Positions 17,706 through 25,081 of a stretch of 25,174 nt of DNA are shown here, piece after piece; the stretch's first letter is position 1, and each line of letters opens with the position of its first letter. The stretch is from a virus: positions 1-25,174 of the IMG/VR virus record IMGVR_UViG_3300042898_000480. One strand, 5' to 3'. The notes beneath the pieces are model-generated. The model was not told the origin of the DNA and searched no databases. It saw only the letters and a program-made list of their open reading frames with translations. Made by a program: the position numbers and the translations under genes.

Positions 17706-18058
17706 TTTTAGAGCACGTCCAACAATTAATTCCAAAAGAATTTAATGTCAAGGAATTTTTAGATTTGTCGGCATTGGATTTAGGCAGTAAGTTATACACG
17801 GTGTTGGCGCCTCTTAAAGAAAAAGAATTTAAAGAGTTTACTAGAATTGTATTTTATCATAGTGCTCCTTTGGTATATACTTTTAATGATTTGCCCGCAG
17901 ACTCTTTAATTCAACTACAAAAGATGCTAGTATATATAGATATACCTAATTTCTTTTGTTTGATTGTCAGCGATAAAGATATTAAAGAAGAATTAGAATA
18001 TGTTTGTAAAAAATATTGTGTTGGTGAGCATCCGATCGAATTTATATGTTTAAAATAA
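17702..18058 (+). CDS. Hypothetical protein between gp47 and gp46
   Basis: Not recognised. A 118-residue, slightly acidic, soluble-looking protein with alternating helix- and strand-forming stretches (LIPKEFNVKEFLDLSALDLG, IDIPNFFCLIVSD, IKEELEYVCKKY); no signal peptide, membrane segment or metal motif is seen. Its ATG overlaps the gp47 stop by four bases, and its last 13 bases overlap the gp46 start, so the three genes are locked into one translational unit. That context suggests a role with, or dosage tied to, the gp46/gp47 nuclease, for example as an accessory subunit. This is inference from position only. Confidence 0.8.
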   Translation: MILEHVQQLIPKEFNVKEFLDLSALDLGSKLYTVLAPLKEKEFKEFTRIVFYHSAPLVYTFNDLPADSLIQLQKMLVYIDIPNFFCLIVSDKDIKEELEYVCKKYCVGEHPIEFICLK

Positions 18059-19818
18059 AATATCTTACAGTTAAAAACTTTATGAGCGTGGGTAATAGCA
18101 CCCAGGCTGTTAACTTTGACCGTAAAGACCTTACATTGGTCTTAGGTGAAAACATTGACCTAGGTGGTGATGACACAGGTGCACGTAATGGTACAGGTAA
18201 AACTACTATCATTAACGCATTGTCATATGCTTTGTATGGTACTGCGTTAACTAACATACGTAAAGACAATCTGGTTAACAAAACCAACACCAAGGCCATG
18301 TTGGTCACTATCGAATTTGAAGTCAACGGAGTTGACTATAAGATTGAGCGTGGCCGTAAGCCTAATGTACTTAAATTCTACATAGGTGAACAGGAACAGG
18401 AAGCCAAAGACGATAATAGTCAAGGTGACAGCAGAGAAACGCAACAAGAAATTGAGCGTTTATTGGGCATGAGCCATGACATGTTCAAGCACGTGGTGGC
18501 TCTGAATACATACACAGAACCATTCCTAGCATTAAAGCCAAACGATCAGCGTGCTATAATCGAACAACTGTTGGGTATTACTTTATTGAGTGAGAAAGCC
18601 GAACTACTCAAAGAGCAGAGTAAGGCTACAAAGGACGCCATCCAACAGGAAGAAGCCAACATCAAGGCAGTGACTGATGCCAATAAGCGTATTGAAGAGC
18701 AGATCGAAGCTACACAGCGTCGTCAGATTCTTTGGTTAACTAAACGCAAGGATGATGTCGCTAAATTGCAGACAGCATTAGATGAATTACTTACATTAGA
18801 CATTGACGCAGAGATCGTCGCACACAAAGAATTATCAGCATACAATCAACGTCGTAAAGATCTAACTGATCTGGACAAAGCCATAGCACGTAGTGAGCAG
18901 GACCTAACACGTGAAGTTAAAGGCATCGCTAACTTAACAGGGGATATAGCTACTCTACGTGAACATAAATGTAATACCTGTGGACAAGATCTACATGATA
19001 GCAAACATGAAGAACTATTAGCGATCAAAGAAAGCAAACTTAAAGATGCAGAAACACAGCAAGGTGTCCATGCTGGAGATTTAGAAGCACTGATCTTAGC
19101 CAAACAAGAATTAGGTGAGCTAGGTAGTCAACCCAAGACATTCTATGACAATGAGGGTCTTGCTATCCAACATCGTAGCAGTATCGCTAGTATACAAGAA
19201 CAGATCACCAGTAAGTCAGCAGAAGAAGATCCCTACACTGAACAGATCGCAGATATGAAGGCAACTGCACTTGCTGAAATTGATTATACTAAGATGAATG
19301 AGCTTAGTCGAGTCAAAGATCATCAGGAATTCCTATACAAACTATTAACTAATAAAGATTCTTATATCCGTAAGAGAATCATTGATCAAAATCTGAGCTA
19401 CTTGAACGCCAGACTGAGCCAATATCTTGACCGTATTGGCTTACCCCATACCGTGGTGTTTATGAATGACCTAAGTGTCAACATCACTGAACTAGGACGT
19501 GAACTAGACTTTGACAACTTGTCCCGTGGTGAACGTAATAGACTTATACTTTCATTATCGTGGAGCTTCCGTGATGTTTGGGAATCATTATATCAACCAA
19601 TCAATTTATTATTCATTGACGAATTGATTGATAGTGGTATGGATGCCAGTGGTGTAGAGAATGCCATGGCTATCCTTAAGAAGATGAGCCGTGATGCACA
19701 TAAATCAATTTGGTTAGTATCGCATAGAGATGAGTTGGGTGGTCGGGTAAATAATGTACTTACTGTAGTAAAAGAAAACGGCTTTACTAGTTATAACACT
19801 GATATTGAGATTACCTAA
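18046..19818 (+). CDS. 46: Recombination endonuclease subunit gp46 (Rad50/SbcC-like ATPase)
   Basis: SMC-type ATPase partner of gp47. The N-terminal Walker A is at residues 45-54 (GARNGTGKTT). A coiled coil follows, with a zinc hook C309-x2-C312 (HKCNTCGQDL) near its middle. The C-terminal lobe has the ABC signature NLSRGERNR at 491-499, Walker B LLFIDELID with D525 and E526, and the switch histidine H560 in SHRDEL. The 590 residues are close to T4 gp46 (560). An unusual Gly/Asp-rich stretch (DLGGDDTGARNG) precedes the P-loop, as if the strand-loop were lengthened. The gene starts inside the preceding small gene, and the radical SAM gene begins 3 bp after its stop. Confidence 0.95.
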   Translation: MFKIKYLTVKNFMSVGNSTQAVNFDRKDLTLVLGENIDLGGDDTGARNGTGKTTIINALSYALYGTALTNIRKDNLVNKTNTKAMLVTIEFEVNGVDYKIERGRKPNVLKFYIGEQEQEAKDDNSQGDSRETQQEIERLLGMSHDMFKHVVALNTYTEPFLALKPNDQRAIIEQLLGITLLSEKAELLKEQSKATKDAIQQEEANIKAVTDANKRIEEQIEATQRRQILWLTKRKDDVAKLQTALDELLTLDIDAEIVAHKELSAYNQRRKDLTDLDKAIARSEQDLTREVKGIANLTGDIATLREHKCNTCGQDLHDSKHEELLAIKESKLKDAETQQGVHAGDLEALILAKQELGELGSQPKTFYDNEGLAIQHRSSIASIQEQITSKSAEEDPYTEQIADMKATALAEIDYTKMNELSRVKDHQEFLYKLLTNKDSYIRKRIIDQNLSYLNARLSQYLDRIGLPHTVVFMNDLSVNITELGRELDFDNLSRGERNRLILSLSWSFRDVWESLYQPINLLFIDELIDSGMDASGVENAMAILKKMSRDAHKSIWLVSHRDELGGRVNNVLTVVKENGFTSYNTDIEIT

Positions 19819-19821
19819 TTT

Positions 19822-21228
19822 ATGAATATTACCATCGTAGCTGTGCCATTTATAGATACAACGCAACCTATAATGGGCCCAGCATTGTTAACTGCCATAC
19901 TTAAAGAACATGGTATAAATGCAATTGGTATAGATTTAAATGTTGATATTGTAAATAAAATTGAAAATCATCCTAACAAACAAAAAATAATAGATTTTTT
20001 CTTTTCACAGTACACACATCCGGATACTATTGATGATCTTGTAGAACTTGTTAATCATTGCTCAACTAAGATATTAGACACAAACCCAGACATACTTGCG
20101 CTGAGCTTGTTGACCTATGGATGTCAGATATTTACTCGATGGTTAGTAACTGATATAAAACAAAAACGTCCCAATATTAAAATTGTGATTGGTGGCCCTG
20201 GTATTAAAAACTTTGTCACTGACAAGAATGGTGAATTTTATCAACAACTCATATCTCTTAAACTAGTTGATGACTATATATTTGGCGATGCTGAGGAATC
20301 ATTTGTTGAATACATAAAAGGCAATCTTAATTATCCTGGTATAAATTCTGATAAATGGAAACCAATTCCAGATTTAAATGTGGTTCCTTACCCTGACTAT
20401 TCTAATTATGATTTTTCTGTATACAAAGATCCAGTAATCCCACTCAGCGACAGTCGAGGTTGTATTAAAAACTGCGAGTTTTGTGATGTAATTGAGCATT
20501 GGACCAAATATCAATATCGATATTCTGATAATGTTTTTGCAGAAATGTTGTATCAAATTGAAAAACACGGCATAACTGCCTTTGCTATGCGTAATAGTTT
20601 ATCAAATGGCAATATGAAAGAATTTAAAAAGTTATTAGTGATGATTGCTGACTATAATGAGAACAAACCCAAAGAAAAACAAATCAGCTGGGAAGGATTT
20701 TTCATTGTTAGACCTCCACAATTCCACCCTGCTGATTTTTGGGAATTATTAGGACGTACTAATGCTAAAATACTGTTAGGTGTTGAAAGCGTAATCTATC
20801 ATGTACGTAAAGGCATGGACAAAACATGTGAAGATAGTGACATTGATTATCATTTAGAAATGGGTCAAAAACACAATGTCAAACTGCAACTATTAATGAT
20901 TGTGGCTTATCCTACAGAAACCTTAGCTGATTATGAATATACCAAACAATGGTTCAGAGACAGGAAACAATATGCCAACAATAGTGTAGTAGCATTGAAT
21001 TTATCATTAGCGTCAATATTACCAGGTACAGAGTTAGATCGCCGCAGTGATGATTATGGTATTAAGAAAGGTAATTTGCCTAGTATTTGGATCAATCAAA
21101 ATTTAAATATTACCCCTAAACAACGTGTAAAATATTTGCTAGAACTTCAACAGGTTTGCAAAGAGTGTGGATTTTTCTTTTATGAAAATCAAGAACAAAC
21201 AGTGGAGCATACTCGCAATGAAGAATAG
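19822..21228 (+). CDS. B12-binding-type radical SAM protein
   Basis: 468 residues with the two-domain plan of cobalamin-type radical SAM enzymes. Residues about 1-160 form a Rossmann-like B12-binding domain (ITIVAVPF, GPALLTAILKEHGINAIGID, LALSLLTYG, IVIGGPGIK). The radical SAM barrel carries C214-x3-C218-x2-C221 (RGCIKNCEFC), which binds the 4Fe-4S cluster, and later LLGVESV and PTETLADYEYT. The usual cobalamin-ligand motif DxHxxG is replaced by DLNVDI, so the lower axial His is missing. It starts 3 bp after gp46 and its last 11 bases overlap the next gene. The substrate is unknown; family members act in methylation, methylthiolation and ring formation. It may work with the PLP proteins downstream. 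Confidence 0.85.
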   Translation: MNITIVAVPFIDTTQPIMGPALLTAILKEHGINAIGIDLNVDIVNKIENHPNKQKIIDFFFSQYTHPDTIDDLVELVNHCSTKILDTNPDILALSLLTYGCQIFTRWLVTDIKQKRPNIKIVIGGPGIKNFVTDKNGEFYQQLISLKLVDDYIFGDAEESFVEYIKGNLNYPGINSDKWKPIPDLNVVPYPDYSNYDFSVYKDPVIPLSDSRGCIKNCEFCDVIEHWTKYQYRYSDNVFAEMLYQIEKHGITAFAMRNSLSNGNMKEFKKLLVMIADYNENKPKEKQISWEGFFIVRPPQFHPADFWELLGRTNAKILLGVESVIYHVRKGMDKTCEDSDIDYHLEMGQKHNVKLQLLMIVAYPTETLADYEYTKQWFRDRKQYANNSVVALNLSLASILPGTELDRRSDDYGIKKGNLPSIWINQNLNITPKQRVKYLLELQQVCKECGFFFYENQEQTVEHTRNEE

Positions 21229-21667
21229 TGCCAGATTAGATTTAACCTTAGAGTTTGGTTCTTGCAATGGCACCATGTTAGTTGATATTATTAATAATAA
21301 TGAAACTCTGTATAGTTTCCACAATGTGACTGAACAATTTATCAATGTTTCTACCCTGATAGAATTACCTAGCCAACTAAAATTTATTATTAACGGAAAA
21401 AATCCTCGATATGATACCAAGGTAGATGCTGATGGGCGTATTTTAGCTGACAAATTTGTAAAACTAGCAAATATGTCATTTGGTTATGTTCCTGTCACCG
21501 AATCAACGTTGTTTTCGATGCTCACTTATACTCCTTACGAAGACCCCACTGTCTATCATGATATATTTTGGGGATTCAACGGAGAAGTTACCATTGATTT
21601 TTCGTATAACACAGTTATCGAGTGGCATCTAAGAAATAACAATAAATTCAATTTGAAACGCAAATAA
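21218..21667 (+). CDS. Hypothetical ~150-residue protein, paralog A
   Basis: Not recognised as a named family. The start chosen is ATG 21218 (MKNSARLDLTLEF), 11 bases inside the radical SAM gene, giving 149 residues; an upstream in-frame ATG at 21167 would overlap much more and is not supported by the paralog. The protein is beta-rich by inspection. It shares a pattern with the protein at 23136-23591: LxLTxxF start, KNP-x(2-3)-DT-x-V-x3-G-x-I-x2-D-x(1-2)-F-x-L, a GY, and a final NG-x(3)-x-x-F-x(5)-x-W-x-L-x-N-N/R. No catalytic motif is visible. Overlap with the radical SAM gene suggests coupled translation and perhaps a shared task such as binding the substrate. Confidence 0.78.
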   Translation: MKNSARLDLTLEFGSCNGTMLVDIINNNETLYSFHNVTEQFINVSTLIELPSQLKFIINGKNPRYDTKVDADGRILADKFVKLANMSFGYVPVTESTLFSMLTYTPYEDPTVYHDIFWGFNGEVTIDFSYNTVIEWHLRNNNKFNLKRK

Positions 21668-21751
21668 GTTTCAAGAATGCCCGGACTTAGATAAAATTAC
21701 GCTAATTACTTTAGTCAAACCCAGTATAAGTTAATAAAAAGGAGTAATCAA
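21668..21751 (+). other. 84-bp intergenic gap before the small basic genes
   Basis: AT-rich spacer. TATAAG at 21725-21730 is the only -10-like element and lacks a convincing -35 hexamer at 16-18 bp. The AAAAAGGAG Shine-Dalgarno of the next gene lies at its end. No hairpin terminator is evident. Confidence 0.5.
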
Positions 21752-21946
21752 ATGGCAGGTCCAGCAGGTAGAGTACACCCAGGTAAGCGCAAAGCTAACC
21801 CAATGTTGACACGTAATGGTAAATCTAGACTAGGCCCATTAAACATCAAACAACTAGAAGAGTTAAAAGAAAAAACGCAACAAAAAAAGAACAAGGCAAA
21901 GATTGCTAGAGAAATTGCTAGACGTCAAGCCTTACTAATAGTATAA
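21752..21946 (+). CDS. Small basic protein (64 residues)
   Basis: A short, strongly basic protein: Gly/Pro/Arg/Lys-rich N-terminus (GRVHPGKRKANPM) followed by a Lys/Glu/Gln-rich helix (residues about 31-60) likely to be continuous alpha or coiled coil. It has a good AAAGGAG Shine-Dalgarno 7-8 nt before the ATG. The composition suggests nucleic-acid binding, but no named domain is recognised. It is followed 22 bp later by another small helical basic protein, and together they interrupt the run of cassette genes. Confidence 0.8.
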   Translation: MAGPAGRVHPGKRKANPMLTRNGKSRLGPLNIKQLEELKEKTQQKKNKAKIAREIARRQALLIV

Positions 21947-21947
21947 T
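21919..21947 (+). promoter_or_regulatory. Possible sigma70-like promoter (TAGACG-17-TATAAT)
   Basis: A perfect TATAAT at 21942-21947 overlaps the stop of the preceding gene. TAGACG, 17 bp upstream, matches TTGACA at four of six bases. The start would be near 21954, giving a 15-nt leader carrying AAAGGAAAAG before the ATG at 21969. It could give the histone-like gene its own transcript. Confidence 0.38.
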
Positions 21948-21968
21948 TTTTAAAAAGGAAAAGTAAAC

Positions 21969-22157
21969 ATGGCAATTCATAATGATATTTTAGCAGCAGT
22001 TGAACTATACGTAGCAGAATCAGAAAAATTTGAAGGTAAAGGTGTCAAGGCTTCGGCGGCACGTGCTCGTGGCGCATTAGGTGATCTGGCTAAACTAGCC
22101 AAGGCTAGACGTGCTGAGATCCAAGAGAAGAAAAACGCAATGGGTGGGGCAAAATAA
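21969..22157 (+). CDS. Small histone-like / H1-like basic protein (62 residues)
   Basis: A short Ala/Lys/Glu-rich helical protein (DILAAVELYVAESEKFEGKG, then ASAARARGALGDLAKLAKAR). From memory, near-identical short proteins in marine T4-like phages are annotated as histone-like, and the Lys/Ala composition fits DNA or protein binding in phage chromatin; function is unproven. AAAGGAAAAG precedes the start by about 8 nt. Its TAA stop at 22155-22157 lies where homology of the following PLP protein begins in the -1 frame. Confidence 0.82.
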   Translation: MAIHNDILAAVELYVAESEKFEGKGVKASAARARGALGDLAKLAKARRAEIQEKKNAMGGAK

Positions 22158-22303
22158 AACAGCTTGCCTACTTACTCTCTAGCAAAGATAAAAACTTTTT
22201 TGAAGCTAGAGATCAGGCAAAATACCTGTTTCAAGGATCTAGGGCAGTCAGAGATCCTAATACATTAGATTTCGTTAACAGCCAATTACAGTCAAATCTA
22301 TCT
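22154..22303 (+). other. In-frame upstream extension of the first PLP protein, without a canonical start
   Basis: The frame of the PLP protein stays open upstream to 22118. From about 22157 it encodes KQLAYLLSS..., EARDQAKYLFQGSRAVRDP, then LDFV. These match the N-terminus of the second PLP protein (RKLAWTLS..., EVRARSRSIFSSGNSIKDP, INFV) in order. No ATG, GTG or TTG occurs in frame before 22304. The only special point is ATA at 22154 overlapping the upstream stop as ATAA. Translation by rare initiation or a -1 slip is possible; so is an N-terminally broken gene. Confidence 0.55.
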
Positions 22304-23170
22304 GTGGTCATGAATAAAGACTACTTAAAAGAATTTGAAAATACTTTCAGTGATTGGCTGTTGGCGCACTCTAGTAATCAAATACAAGGGTTGGAACAAT
22401 ATGTTCCAGCATTTAGTACTGGTACTACCCAGGGATTTGACAGTTTTTATATCAGACACAGGAACTGTCGTTTTCGATGTTTTGTTGGTGAATATTTTTA
22501 TCATTTAAAAAATTGGCAAGCCAATGGAATTGATTGGCAGTTTATCACATCCACTGATCCTGTTATCAAAGGCGATGCGGTAGTTATTAGCATGCCGTTT
22601 TGTGATACCGGGTCACCGCACTCGCAATATAAAGAATTATTAGACCACTGTGAAAGCCTAAATATACCTGTATTAGTCGACTGTGCGTATTATGCTATCA
22701 GTGGTGATTTAAAAATAAACTTAGACTATACTTGTATTGATACTGTTTGCTTTAGTTTAAGCAAAGCATTTCCTGTAGCACAATTACGTATTGGGGTAAG
22801 ATACAGTCGACCAAATATATTTGATGGACAAAGTTTACATTCTAAAATAAATTACAATCATAACTTATCTGCTTACATAGGATTAAATGTCATGCGAGCA
22901 TTTGGCAGTGATTACATACATAAAACTTTTAAATCTAAACAACAGGAAATATGTAATACATTACCTGGGTTGACTGCCAGCAACTGTAGTATATTTGCTG
23001 TAGGCAATAAGCATTGGGACCACTACAGTCGAGCCAATTTATTAAATGAATACCAGTTGTCATTTAACCCAGAATTATTTGTTAATAGAATTTGTTTAAA
23101 TCCCGTATATGAAAATTGGGATATTTGGAAATTATATGCGTCTACATCTGACATTCAAAAATATAGTTGA
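22304..23170 (+). CDS. Fold-type-I PLP-dependent aminotransferase-like protein 1
   Basis: 288 residues from the first possible start (GTG 22304, ATG at 22310), but homology with the paralog at 23567 begins about 50 codons earlier, so a ~338-residue product is likelier. Visible aminotransferase hallmarks, numbered from 22304: STGTTQGF (phosphate-binding region), VLVDCAYY with D126 and Y129, and the Schiff-base lysine K154 in SLSKAFP, with R162 eight residues on as in aspartate aminotransferases. R262 in VNRICLN may bind the substrate carboxylate. The usual NPTG asparagine motif is replaced by PFCDTG. The start at 22304 has no Shine-Dalgarno. The next gene overlaps its 3' end. The reaction is unknown; transamination, decarboxylation or other PLP chemistry are all open. 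Confidence 0.8.
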   Translation: MVMNKDYLKEFENTFSDWLLAHSSNQIQGLEQYVPAFSTGTTQGFDSFYIRHRNCRFRCFVGEYFYHLKNWQANGIDWQFITSTDPVIKGDAVVISMPFCDTGSPHSQYKELLDHCESLNIPVLVDCAYYAISGDLKINLDYTCIDTVCFSLSKAFPVAQLRIGVRYSRPNIFDGQSLHSKINYNHNLSAYIGLNVMRAFGSDYIHKTFKSKQQEICNTLPGLTASNCSIFAVGNKHWDHYSRANLLNEYQLSFNPELFVNRICLNPVYENWDIWKLYASTSDIQKYS

Positions 23171-23591
23171 TAATCCTAAATGTAGGATTTATATCAATCA
23201 ACAGTTACTGGCAGAAGGTACTGTAGAACCGTCGTACGAATTTAATATTGATCTTGATGCTGTAGAATGTTGTCTACGCATTGATCATTGGGACAAAAAT
23301 CCGTCTGACACTATTGTAGAAAATGGTAAGATTATAAGAGATCGTAGTTTTGAATTAGAAAAAATTATCATTGACGGATATGATTTACAAGAATTAATCT
23401 GGCAAAGCAGTTTTGTTTCTTCTAACAGTGAACGCTACGAAAGTTGTTTATTTTTTGGCCCCAATGGTAGTTTTGAATTATCCTTCCATTTGCCAATATT
23501 ACATTGGATCTTATCTAATAGAAACGAATCAGGATGGGAAGAAGATTATAACCATTATCAAACAGCATGTCAACTTTTAAAACAGATATAG
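23136..23591 (+). CDS. Hypothetical ~150-residue protein, paralog B
   Basis: Not recognised as a named family; 151 residues from ATG 23136 (MRLHLTF), chosen because this matches the start of paralog A at 21218; an in-frame ATG at 23109 would lie deeper in the preceding gene. The shared pattern includes KNPSDTIVENGKIIRDRSFE against the paralog's KNPRYDTKVDADGRILADKF, and FFGPNGSFELSFHLPILHW against WGFNGEVTIDFSYNTVIEW. Compared with A it has an extra C-terminal helix (HYQTACQLLKQI). It overlaps the PLP gene upstream by 35 bases and the one downstream by 25, so all three are probably translated together. Confidence 0.78.
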   Translation: MRLHLTFKNIVDNPKCRIYINQQLLAEGTVEPSYEFNIDLDAVECCLRIDHWDKNPSDTIVENGKIIRDRSFELEKIIIDGYDLQELIWQSSFVSSNSERYESCLFFGPNGSFELSFHLPILHWILSNRNESGWEEDYNHYQTACQLLKQI

Positions 23592-24628
23592 ATCAGGTAC
23601 GCAAGTTAGCGTGGACATTATCTTTGGCTAGTGCTAAGAGTAAACTAGACGTACCTGGTGAATATATTTGGGCTTTTCCTAAAAACGTTGGCATGGATGA
23701 AGTTCGTGCTCGTAGTCGTAGTATATTCAGCAGTGGTAATAGCATTAAAGATCCCACTGTGATTAATTTTGTACAAGGATTAAATCTCAGCAGACACTTA
23801 TTAAATCCTTGGGTAGTCAATGAATTTCAAGATGCTTTTCCTACATGGGTCAAGCAAGGAACATTGTATAATTTAAAAAACTTTGACCTATTCAAGTATG
23901 TGGGATTCAGTGCTGGCACACAGGAATCTTTTTTAAATTATTATTTGGTCAACAATGCCAAACGTTTCCGTGTATTCCGTGGTGACTATTGGTGGCACAT
24001 GGATATATGGACTAAGATAGGACTAGAGTGGGCTTACATAGAAGATGACGATATCAGACCCAACGATGTATGTATATGTAGTTGTCCTTTTGCGCTATTG
24101 GGAGATGTACATCCACAGTTTAATTGGTTAATCGAAGAATGTAATCGTATAGGAGTAAAACTATTGGTAGATTTTATCTACTTACCCAATAGCATGAATT
24201 GTGTGGACTTAGATCTTAGTGCCGACTGTATTGACGAAATTACTTTTAGTTTTAGCAAGACATTTCCTGTACAGTGTGCTAAAATAGCAGTTAGAATGCG
24301 TAAAACCAAACCGCAGGATCCTATGCAGATGAGCAATGATGAAAACATCTGTAATAGATTAAGTGCTGGGCTAGGTATTGACATTATTGGTCAATTTCCT
24401 ATAGACTATCAAGCACACAAATATCGAGATAAACAATTACACTGGTGTAATAAATTAGGCCTTAAGGCAACAAAAGTTGTTCATTTTGGTCTAGGTGATG
24501 ATTATACTGACTATGGGCGCAGTGATACTGCTGCCTGGTGTAGTCCATTCAATGAACAACAGAATAGATACAATTTAGGTATGTTGTATGAAAACGAAAA
24601 TTTATTAAAAAAGTTACGACTCTATTAA
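23567..24628 (+). CDS. Fold-type-I PLP-dependent aminotransferase-like protein 2
   Basis: 353 residues, paralogous to the protein at 22304 along its length (GFSAGTQESF, FRVFRGDYWWHMDIWTKIGL, CPFALLGDVHPQF). Key positions: D202 and Y205 in LLVDFIYL (PLP ring contacts) and the Schiff-base lysine K231 in FSFSKTFP. Eight residues later the arginine that normally grips the PLP phosphate is lysine (K239), and the following Gly is Ala, so the cofactor pocket differs from paralog 1. The NPTG motif is again absent. The NRYNLGMLYEN segment near the C-terminus parallels NRICLNPVYEN in paralog 1, keeping a possible substrate-binding Arg. The start overlaps the preceding gene by 25 bases. A heterodimer of the two paralogs is plausible since this fold is usually dimeric. 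Confidence 0.85.
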   Translation: MSTFKTDIDQVRKLAWTLSLASAKSKLDVPGEYIWAFPKNVGMDEVRARSRSIFSSGNSIKDPTVINFVQGLNLSRHLLNPWVVNEFQDAFPTWVKQGTLYNLKNFDLFKYVGFSAGTQESFLNYYLVNNAKRFRVFRGDYWWHMDIWTKIGLEWAYIEDDDIRPNDVCICSCPFALLGDVHPQFNWLIEECNRIGVKLLVDFIYLPNSMNCVDLDLSADCIDEITFSFSKTFPVQCAKIAVRMRKTKPQDPMQMSNDENICNRLSAGLGIDIIGQFPIDYQAHKYRDKQLHWCNKLGLKATKVVHFGLGDDYTDYGRSDTAAWCSPFNEQQNRYNLGMLYENENLLKKLRLY

Positions 24629-24646
24629 TCAAGGATAATTAAGTAT

Positions 24647-25081
24647 ATGACATATCAGCATCCTTGGATTTATAGCGGTAAACCTTTTGAATCTGAGGAT
24701 ATCAACGAGTATTATGGATTTATATATAGGATAACTAATACTGTTAACGGTCATGATTACGTTGGCAGGAAATACTTCAAAACAATCAAAAAGAGACCAC
24801 CTCTAAAAGGCAAGAAAAACAAGCGCAGGGAAACAGTTGAAACTGATTGGAAAGAATACTGGGGCAGTAGTCCTAGACTCCAAGCAGATATAGACTTACT
24901 AGGCAAGGACAAGTTCACTCGTGAAATCATACATCTATGTGAGTCACGTGGCGAAACTAACTACTTGGAAGCCTATTACCAGTTTAAGGAAGATGTATTG
25001 TTACGTGAAAACAACTACAATGGCATCATCCAGATCAGACTAGGTAAGAATTCCGTAAAAGATTTAAAGATTACAAAATAA
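24647..25081 (+). CDS. GIY-YIG-like phage nuclease
   Basis: 144 residues. The N-terminal EYYGFIYRITNTVNGHDYVG followed by RKYF gives the GIY...YIG pattern in the forms FIY and YVG, with the Arg just after as in GIY-YIG nucleases. Later WKEYWGSSPRLQADIDLLGK and a Glu in NYLEAYYQF (candidate metal ligand) fit small phage nucleases of this superfamily. No separate DNA-binding domain is seen, unlike homing enzymes such as I-TevI. It has an AAGGAT Shine-Dalgarno about 12 nt before the ATG, rather distant. It follows the PLP gene by 18 bp; whether it belongs to the cassette is unclear. Activity is inferred. Confidence 0.7.
   Translation: MTYQHPWIYSGKPFESEDINEYYGFIYRITNTVNGHDYVGRKYFKTIKKRPPLKGKKNKRRETVETDWKEYWGSSPRLQADIDLLGKDKFTREIIHLCESRGETNYLEAYYQFKEDVLLRENNYNGIIQIRLGKNSVKDLKITK

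Follow-up and report, generated by a model that had tools for sequence, protein, structure and literature searches.

Why would a phage carry a radical S-adenosylmethionine (SAM) enzyme, two pyridoxal 5′-phosphate (PLP) enzymes and two small paralogous proteins in the same short region? The question is raised by a 25,174-base virus record with T4-type genes (IMG/VR record IMGVR_UViG_3300042898_000480), which we call the window. Five intact open reading frames (ORFs) of this kind are found between positions 19822 and 24628: the radical-SAM gene (rSAM), the PLP enzyme genes PLP1 and PLP2, and the genes for the small proteins S1 and S2. The original prediction treated them as one tightly packed run that might encode a single pathway. 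Our analysis instead resolves the region into two separate exchangeable cassettes, rSAM-S1 and PLP1-S2-PLP2. Each contains a member of one small-protein family, S, which gene order across many loci strongly supports as a partner of radical-SAM and PLP enzymes in uncultured, mostly water-living phages. The five genes are as follows.

19822–21228, + strand: rSAM, enzyme of module 1, a 468-amino-acid (aa) protein of the B12-binding/radical-SAM class-B type (Pfam; CxxxCxxC motif)
21218–21667, + strand: S1, partner in module 1, S family (sequence; homology to S2; tree of S proteins)
22154–23170, + strand: PLP1, enzyme of module 2, amino-acid-type fold-I PLP enzyme (Pfam, AlphaFold2 (AF2) model, PDB matches; start uncertain)
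23136–23591, + strand: S2, partner in module 2, predicted CBM60-like beta-sandwich with a C-terminal helical tail (AF2 model, match to 2xfd, alignment)
23567–24628, + strand: PLP2, enzyme of module 2, paralogue of PLP1 (30% identity to PLP1; 18 relatives; invariant residues)

Two exchangeable modules

The gene overlaps described earlier, 11 nucleotides (nt) between rSAM and S1, 35 nt between PLP1 and S2 and 25 nt between S2 and PLP2, are correct. However, the five genes do not form one packed run, as 486 nt and two small ORFs separate the end of S1 (21667) from PLP1. Two close relatives among the loci that we fetched (numbered with the prefix L) carry empty sites at these positions. In L007, blocks matching window positions 18044–19813 and 21936–24951 are only 17 bases apart; this phage is without rSAM, S1 and a 64-aa small ORF, and keeps PLP1-S2-PLP2. 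In L005, whose gp46 is 88.7% identical to that of the window at the nucleotide level and 96% at the amino acid level, blocks matching 21739–22145 and 24635–25080 are only 5 bases apart, and the PLP cassette is missing from the homologous site.

Larger records give the same picture. All six phages retrieved with rSAM as the seed carry the rSAM module but not the PLP cassette, and the PLP cassette occurs without an rSAM gene of the window's family in five of ten retrieved with PLP genes, although some of these records may be fragments, which makes the counts soft where the two empty sites are firm. Because both modules are separable in close relatives as well as in larger records, the single-pathway reading is unsupported, and we rejected a pathway of five genes. 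Independent occurrence of the genes in relatives, which is what we find, was the very observation that the original prediction had named as speaking against such a pathway.

The surroundings of the modules are also variable. In most of the 28 contigs found with PLP2, PLP1-S2-PLP2 resides between gp46 and a GIY-YIG gene. In other phage lineages S2-PLP2 recurs, sometimes accompanied by PLP1 and sometimes not, and this pair would be the minimal unit; a scan with the window's PLP1 alone matched only L007. The rSAM gene and its S gene may precede PLP1, follow PLP2, lie elsewhere in the opposite orientation or stand alone. Other, unrelated enzymes are swapped in these islands too, and one locus (L015, 110–4351) holds, between gp47 and gp46, genes that by eye resemble an AMP ligase, TctC, and the large and small subunits of a Rieske-type oxygenase. 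The swapping of cassettes between close relatives suggests cargo under diversifying selection, comparable to surface-modifying or counter-defence genes, and not a role in core replication.

The S family and its enzyme partners

The two small proteins had been described as paralogues, and this relationship is borne out both by BLASTP (25% identity, E 0.006) and by alignment of their family profiles (HHalign probability 97.4, E 1.1e-11). A third S type, encoded beside twitch radical-SAM genes, is homologous to the other two, and an iterated profile search recovered 149 S members in the fetched loci. The suggestion that the small proteins are enzyme partners is strongly supported over these approximately 150 proteins. 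S is the direct neighbour of 76 of 95 related class-B rSAM genes. With each ORF taken from its earliest possible start, a choice that extends overlaps, 98.6% of 73 junctions from rSAM to S and all 71 junctions from S to PLP genes overlap or touch. Within a close group of twitch rSAM genes, as we delimited it on the locus map (L204–L230 and L244), S is directly downstream in 26 of 29 cases and all 26 S matches of those loci are at this position; several of the contigs are near-copies, and the set contains 16 different S sequences. None of the more distant twitch rSAM genes is accompanied by S.

The partner of an S protein is also reflected in its ancestry and in its C-terminus. A tree of 96 S proteins requires 11 changes of partner label, compared with 42.4 in shuffles. 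The rSAM-linked proteins appear in more than one place on this tree, and S1 is located among them. S proteins linked to PLP enzymes have their own last strand and tail (NDPxWEEDY), as do those linked to rSAM (NKF), and most members linked to twitch enzymes carry a GQGW C-terminal tail.

Several other arrangements were encountered. The twitch/SPASM radical-SAM genes with S directly downstream belong to jumbo phages (L196 5002–6721, L204–L230, L244). Some S proteins adjoin none of the three enzymes: two in tandem in L109 (5786–6627), and others in L112 (5675–6232), L116 (8566–9045) and L111 (5504–5935). Genes of the window's rSAM family are found without an adjoining S in L180, L182, L185–L188, L194 and L195, and in L180 and L187 this gene resides between a gene resembling those for single-stranded DNA-binding proteins and a RecA/UvsX-like gene.

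What kind of protein is S? The small proteins are beta-rich, as had been noted from their sequence, and the structure search that had been proposed, run on S2, leads to the fold of CBM60, a calcium-dependent carbohydrate-binding module. The AF2 model of S2 (predicted local distance difference test score, pLDDT, 92.9) is a beta-sandwich whose top structural match is the vCBM60 structure 2xfd (Foldseek E 8.3e-4; VIA-align Z 10.7, root-mean-square deviation 2.7, 100 aligned residues), followed by the related structure 2xhh (Z 9.6). PLAT/C2-like folds, the next to match, were set aside at their lower Z of 6.5. At the sequence level, the Pfam CBM60 family (PF16841) is matched weakly by two individual S members (E 0.0076 and 0.0055; 17.6–18.2 bits against a cut-off of 28.2). 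Assignment to a known family was otherwise rejected, as S has no PHROG match, the window's S proteins have no Pfam match and the best PDB sequence matches are insignificant. Judging from the model of S2, S appears to share the CBM60 fold, and perhaps its ancestry; a shared fold shows no function.

The enzyme of module 1 appears to be a B12-type radical SAM protein, as predicted. Its putative N-terminal B12-binding domain (PF02310; E 2.9e-7, 30.8 bits against a cut-off of 32.1) and its Radical_SAM domain (E 2.4e-5) both score slightly under the curated Pfam cut-offs, and the CxxxCxxC cluster motif is present, with C214, C218 and C221 invariant in an alignment of 10 relatives. The best NCBIfam models are TIGR03975, a C-methyltransferase of ribosomally synthesized and post-translationally modified peptides (RiPPs), at 7e-18, and the PhpK P-methyltransferase TIGR04479, at 2.6e-16. 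The protein fails both cut-offs (64.4 bits versus 281.85 and 59 bits versus 600, respectively), and methylation is its likely reaction by analogy with its class.

The two PLP enzymes were likewise confirmed as paralogues of the aminotransferase I/II fold (E 2e-43). PLP1 exceeds the Pfam cut-off for Aminotran_1_2 (PF00155; 27.3 bits versus 19.7), and PLP2 has no Pfam match, yet the two are 30% identical. The AF2 model of PLP1 (pLDDT 92.5) adopts fold type I, and its nearest structures are amino-acid aminotransferases, C-S lyases and O2/PLP enzymes at Z of about 22, with no clear winner. Residues K203, D175, Y178 and R311 are invariant across 34 PLP1/PLP2 rows; loss of catalytic residues among homologues, which had been named as evidence against the prediction, is therefore not what is found. 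By motif, K203 is presumably the Schiff-base lysine, D175 and Y178 the cofactor aspartate and tyrosine, and R311 an arginine of the carboxylate-binding type. Conservation of this substrate-type arginine suggests an alpha-amino acid substrate. Sugar aminotransferases were considered and rejected, because neither paralogue matches DegT and both belong to the amino-acid branch.

Other columns are fixed differently in PLP1 and PLP2 (91 T/Q, 149 C/A, 150 D/L and 211 R/K, respectively). Because each paralogue has separate invariant active-site residues, the two are probably an unequal pair, operating either as a heterodimer or in consecutive steps. PLP2, whose 18 relatives are 58–89% identical to it, is the slowest-evolving and most conserved gene of the cassette, with a mean identity of 0.68 compared with 0.50 for S2 and 0.49 for PLP1. 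A divergent PLP1/PLP2 relative (L113 8782–9774; 4e-35) is encoded near an rSAM-S pair but has no adjoining S, and the same phage has S-PLP2 elsewhere (L117).

What S may do for its enzymes

The original prediction is supported as to unusual radical-SAM and PLP chemistry and small proteins that partner the enzymes, but not as to the single pathway and DNA hypermodification. The explanation that we favour, tentatively, gives S the role of a dedicated subunit by which each enzyme is directed to a glycan or glycoconjugate. Overlapping genes for S and an enzyme would be translated together, and their products would form a complex. In it, the domain common to the S proteins would bind to the target, and the enzyme would dock on the last strand and the C-terminal tail, which are specific to the partner. 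As the target, a glycan or glycoconjugate of the host envelope or of the virion seems likeliest. The radical-SAM enzyme might C-methylate or otherwise alter this target, and PLP1 and PLP2 might alter it at an amino-acid or amine substituent. We infer the glycan-binding role from the predicted CBM60 fold of S2 and from genomic context. A broader version of this explanation, possible though doubtful, is a general toolkit in which a lectin-like S with docking tails directs rSAM enzymes of the class-B and twitch types, as well as PLP enzymes, to one surface glycan shared by all, the modules being swapped like serotype-conversion genes.

With regard to context, a glycosyltransferase-like gene (phrog_1962, 1.2e-22) abuts the cassette in one lineage, where an Fe-S assembly gene and a QueD-like gene are also nearby. 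In another lineage (G005), S-PLP2 is flanked by genes for a carbamoyltransferase and a DegT aminotransferase. DegT genes occur in 11 of 16 records, and epimerase and PIG-L genes in several. Epimerase and DegT genes are also present in L199, L200, L202 and L203 (with PIG-L in L200 and L202), and in this set the sugar genes adjoin either thymidylate synthase and a dihydrofolate reductase-like gene or a ThyX-like gene.

Several observations weigh against the glycan-aiming explanation. The neighbouring genes favour glycan chemistry, but they are a weak guide because large phages commonly carry glycan genes. No S member reaches the CBM60 cut-off, for which reason we do not file S as CBM60, and the window's S2 does not match PF16841. 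The fold of S1 would be that of S2 by homology only, and among the S proteins linked to rSAM the acidic residues show no strict conservation. No S was found for 17 of the 95 rSAM genes, and the linkage was seen in loci that were fetched partly for carrying these very genes. Furthermore, the nearest characterised class-B relatives of rSAM act on peptides, proteins and phosphinates, and not on glycans.

This kinship bears on an alternative, in our view rather unlikely, in which S is itself the substrate. Under this reading S would be a folded protein, either RiPP-like or part of the virion, and each enzyme would modify its own S in or close to the C-terminal tail that is characteristic of the partner. 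The closest rSAM families, the RiPP C-methyltransferases and the glutamine C-methyltransferase McrA, act on peptides or proteins. In addition, each enzyme has one adjoining and overlapping S, the S proteins form partner-specific clades, and their tails are conserved (e.g. GQGW when linked to twitch enzymes and N-D-P-x-W when linked to PLP enzymes). However, rSAM-linked S proteins have no single invariant residue that could serve as the modification site (only P, W, G, L and N columns), the tryptophan of the twitch-linked tail is missing in some members, and the usual substrates of PLP enzymes of the fold-I aminotransferase type are free amino acids. The resemblance of PLP1 and PLP2 to such free-amino-acid enzymes fits another reading, in which S is a subunit with a structural or chaperone role and the enzymes either produce a small molecule or modify a sugar or amino acid bound to a nucleotide. 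The CBM-like fold would then be a mere scaffold, with no polymeric glycan targeted. Overlapping genes would suit a fixed subunit, and sugar-nucleotide genes are present in these phages, but we consider this arrangement unlikely. A shared target or location better explains why one scaffold serves three unrelated enzyme classes, and conservation of S falls well below that of PLP2 (0.50 versus 0.68), though PLP1 is equally variable.

Two further explanations seem very improbable to us. Hypermodification of phage DNA, which the original prediction considered, would agree with the position of the cassettes beside the gp46/gp47 recombination genes and with the thymidylate-synthase-type genes of two relatives. 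However, neither cassette contains a supporting gene, no nucleotide kinase, base hydroxylase or DNA glycosyltransferase was found among the cassette neighbours, and the neighbouring chemistry in relatives is of the glycan type. The modules also occupy differing genomic sites, including some beside tail-fibre-like genes, and thymidylate-synthase-type genes occur in only 2 of 16 records. Nor do we put much faith in the idea that the genes are neighbouring but unrelated cargo whose linkage carries no functional meaning. The island does carry many unrelated swapped genes, but the linkage of S recurs with three enzyme types, in varied gene orders and phage lineages, and nearly always with overlapping genes.

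Gene context, relatives and known systems

Upstream of the cassettes are genes that we take to be homologues of gp59, gp47 and gp46, and downstream is a GIY-YIG gene of the SegE type (7.6e-39). Among deposited phages, the gp46 protein is closest to those of jumbo phages such as PA5oct (50.6%) and Atu_ph07 (44.2%). The small ORFs between S1 and PLP1, which the original prediction overlooked, are as follows.

21752–21946: 64-aa small ORF, Lys/Arg-rich
21969–22157: 62-aa small ORF, Lys/Arg-rich

Both are kept in close relatives at the cassette borders (L005 7132–7533; L007 2957–3145). The GTG at 22304 that had been proposed as the start of PLP1 makes the protein too short, as homology to relatives extends back to approximately 22154. 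No ATG, GTG or TTG start is present there, and the same is true of the close relative L007 (3130–3160). The PLP1 frame opens at GCAAAATAA, precisely where the 62-aa ORF stops (window positions 22140–22160). Possible origins of the N-terminus are an ATA start at 22154 or a −1 slip on AAAA that would fuse PLP1 to the 62-aa ORF. When PLP1, S2 and PLP2 are compared with their counterparts in L007, the nonsynonymous rate (dN) is far below the synonymous rate (dS), the latter being near saturation. Because of this difference and the recurrence of the gene order in dozens of contigs, we regard the genes as real beyond chance.

In 50,697 GenBank phage records, tblastn found no match to the window's PLP2 or S1, to two further PLP2/S pairs or to an S encoded on its own, and searches of cultured phages with rSAM gave distant partial matches only. 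PHROGs and the literature that was searched likewise contained nothing resembling S or PLP2. Two pattern scans of GTDB contigs confirmed no cellular relatives, although the patterns are narrow and absence is not proven by them. PADLOC recognized no defence system among the five proteins: S1, PLP1 and S2 were not matched, the match of PLP2 was at chance level, and rSAM matched a single candidate model, PDC-M51A (3.8e-11).

In their folds the enzymes are ordinary, and the novelty is the arrangement, in which one S partner is common to three enzyme classes. Uncultured T4-like phages are rich in radical-SAM genes, and an S partner common to two radical-SAM types and a PLP pair offers a single handle on the class of substrate that all of them act upon. 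Should S aim its enzymes, radical chemistry would be served in trans by a carbohydrate-binding module, and we are aware of no earlier case of this. Should S be the substrate, a large and undescribed set of radical-modified proteins would exist in phages.

The closest known systems each share part of this architecture. T4-like ocean virus genomes with up to 12 radical-SAM genes have been reported (PMC5332604); this is the only relevant work that we found in the literature on phage radical-SAM partners, and the relevant passage mentions no S partner. The twitch/SPASM phage proteins of NF033640 have an S relative encoded directly behind them, whereas the window's rSAM is of the class-B type. The methyltransferases of TIGR03975 and TIGR04479 resemble rSAM in combining a radical-SAM domain with an N-terminal B12-binding domain, the latter a putative one in rSAM, but the partner in the window is a folded protein of roughly 140–160 aa and not a short precursor peptide. 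PLP1 shares its fold and catalytic residues with fold-type-I aminotransferases and their kin (HisC, kynurenine aminotransferase, C-S lyases and the O2/PLP enzyme Plu4, the last with a weak sequence match at E 0.0018), but the window has two diverged paralogues around an S gene, with only about 10–14% identity to solved structures. The DegT/DnrJ/EryC1 sugar aminotransferases are also PLP enzymes, and 11 of 16 such phages carry them, but they represent a family that PLP1 and PLP2, as members of the amino-acid branch, do not match. Finally, the predicted beta-sandwich of S2 and the weak sequence matches of two S members recall the xylan-binding CBM60 modules (PF16841; 2xfd, 2xhh). Known modules of this kind are appended to glycoside hydrolases, whereas S is a stand-alone phage protein with a partner-specific C-terminal tail, encoded beside radical-SAM and PLP enzymes.

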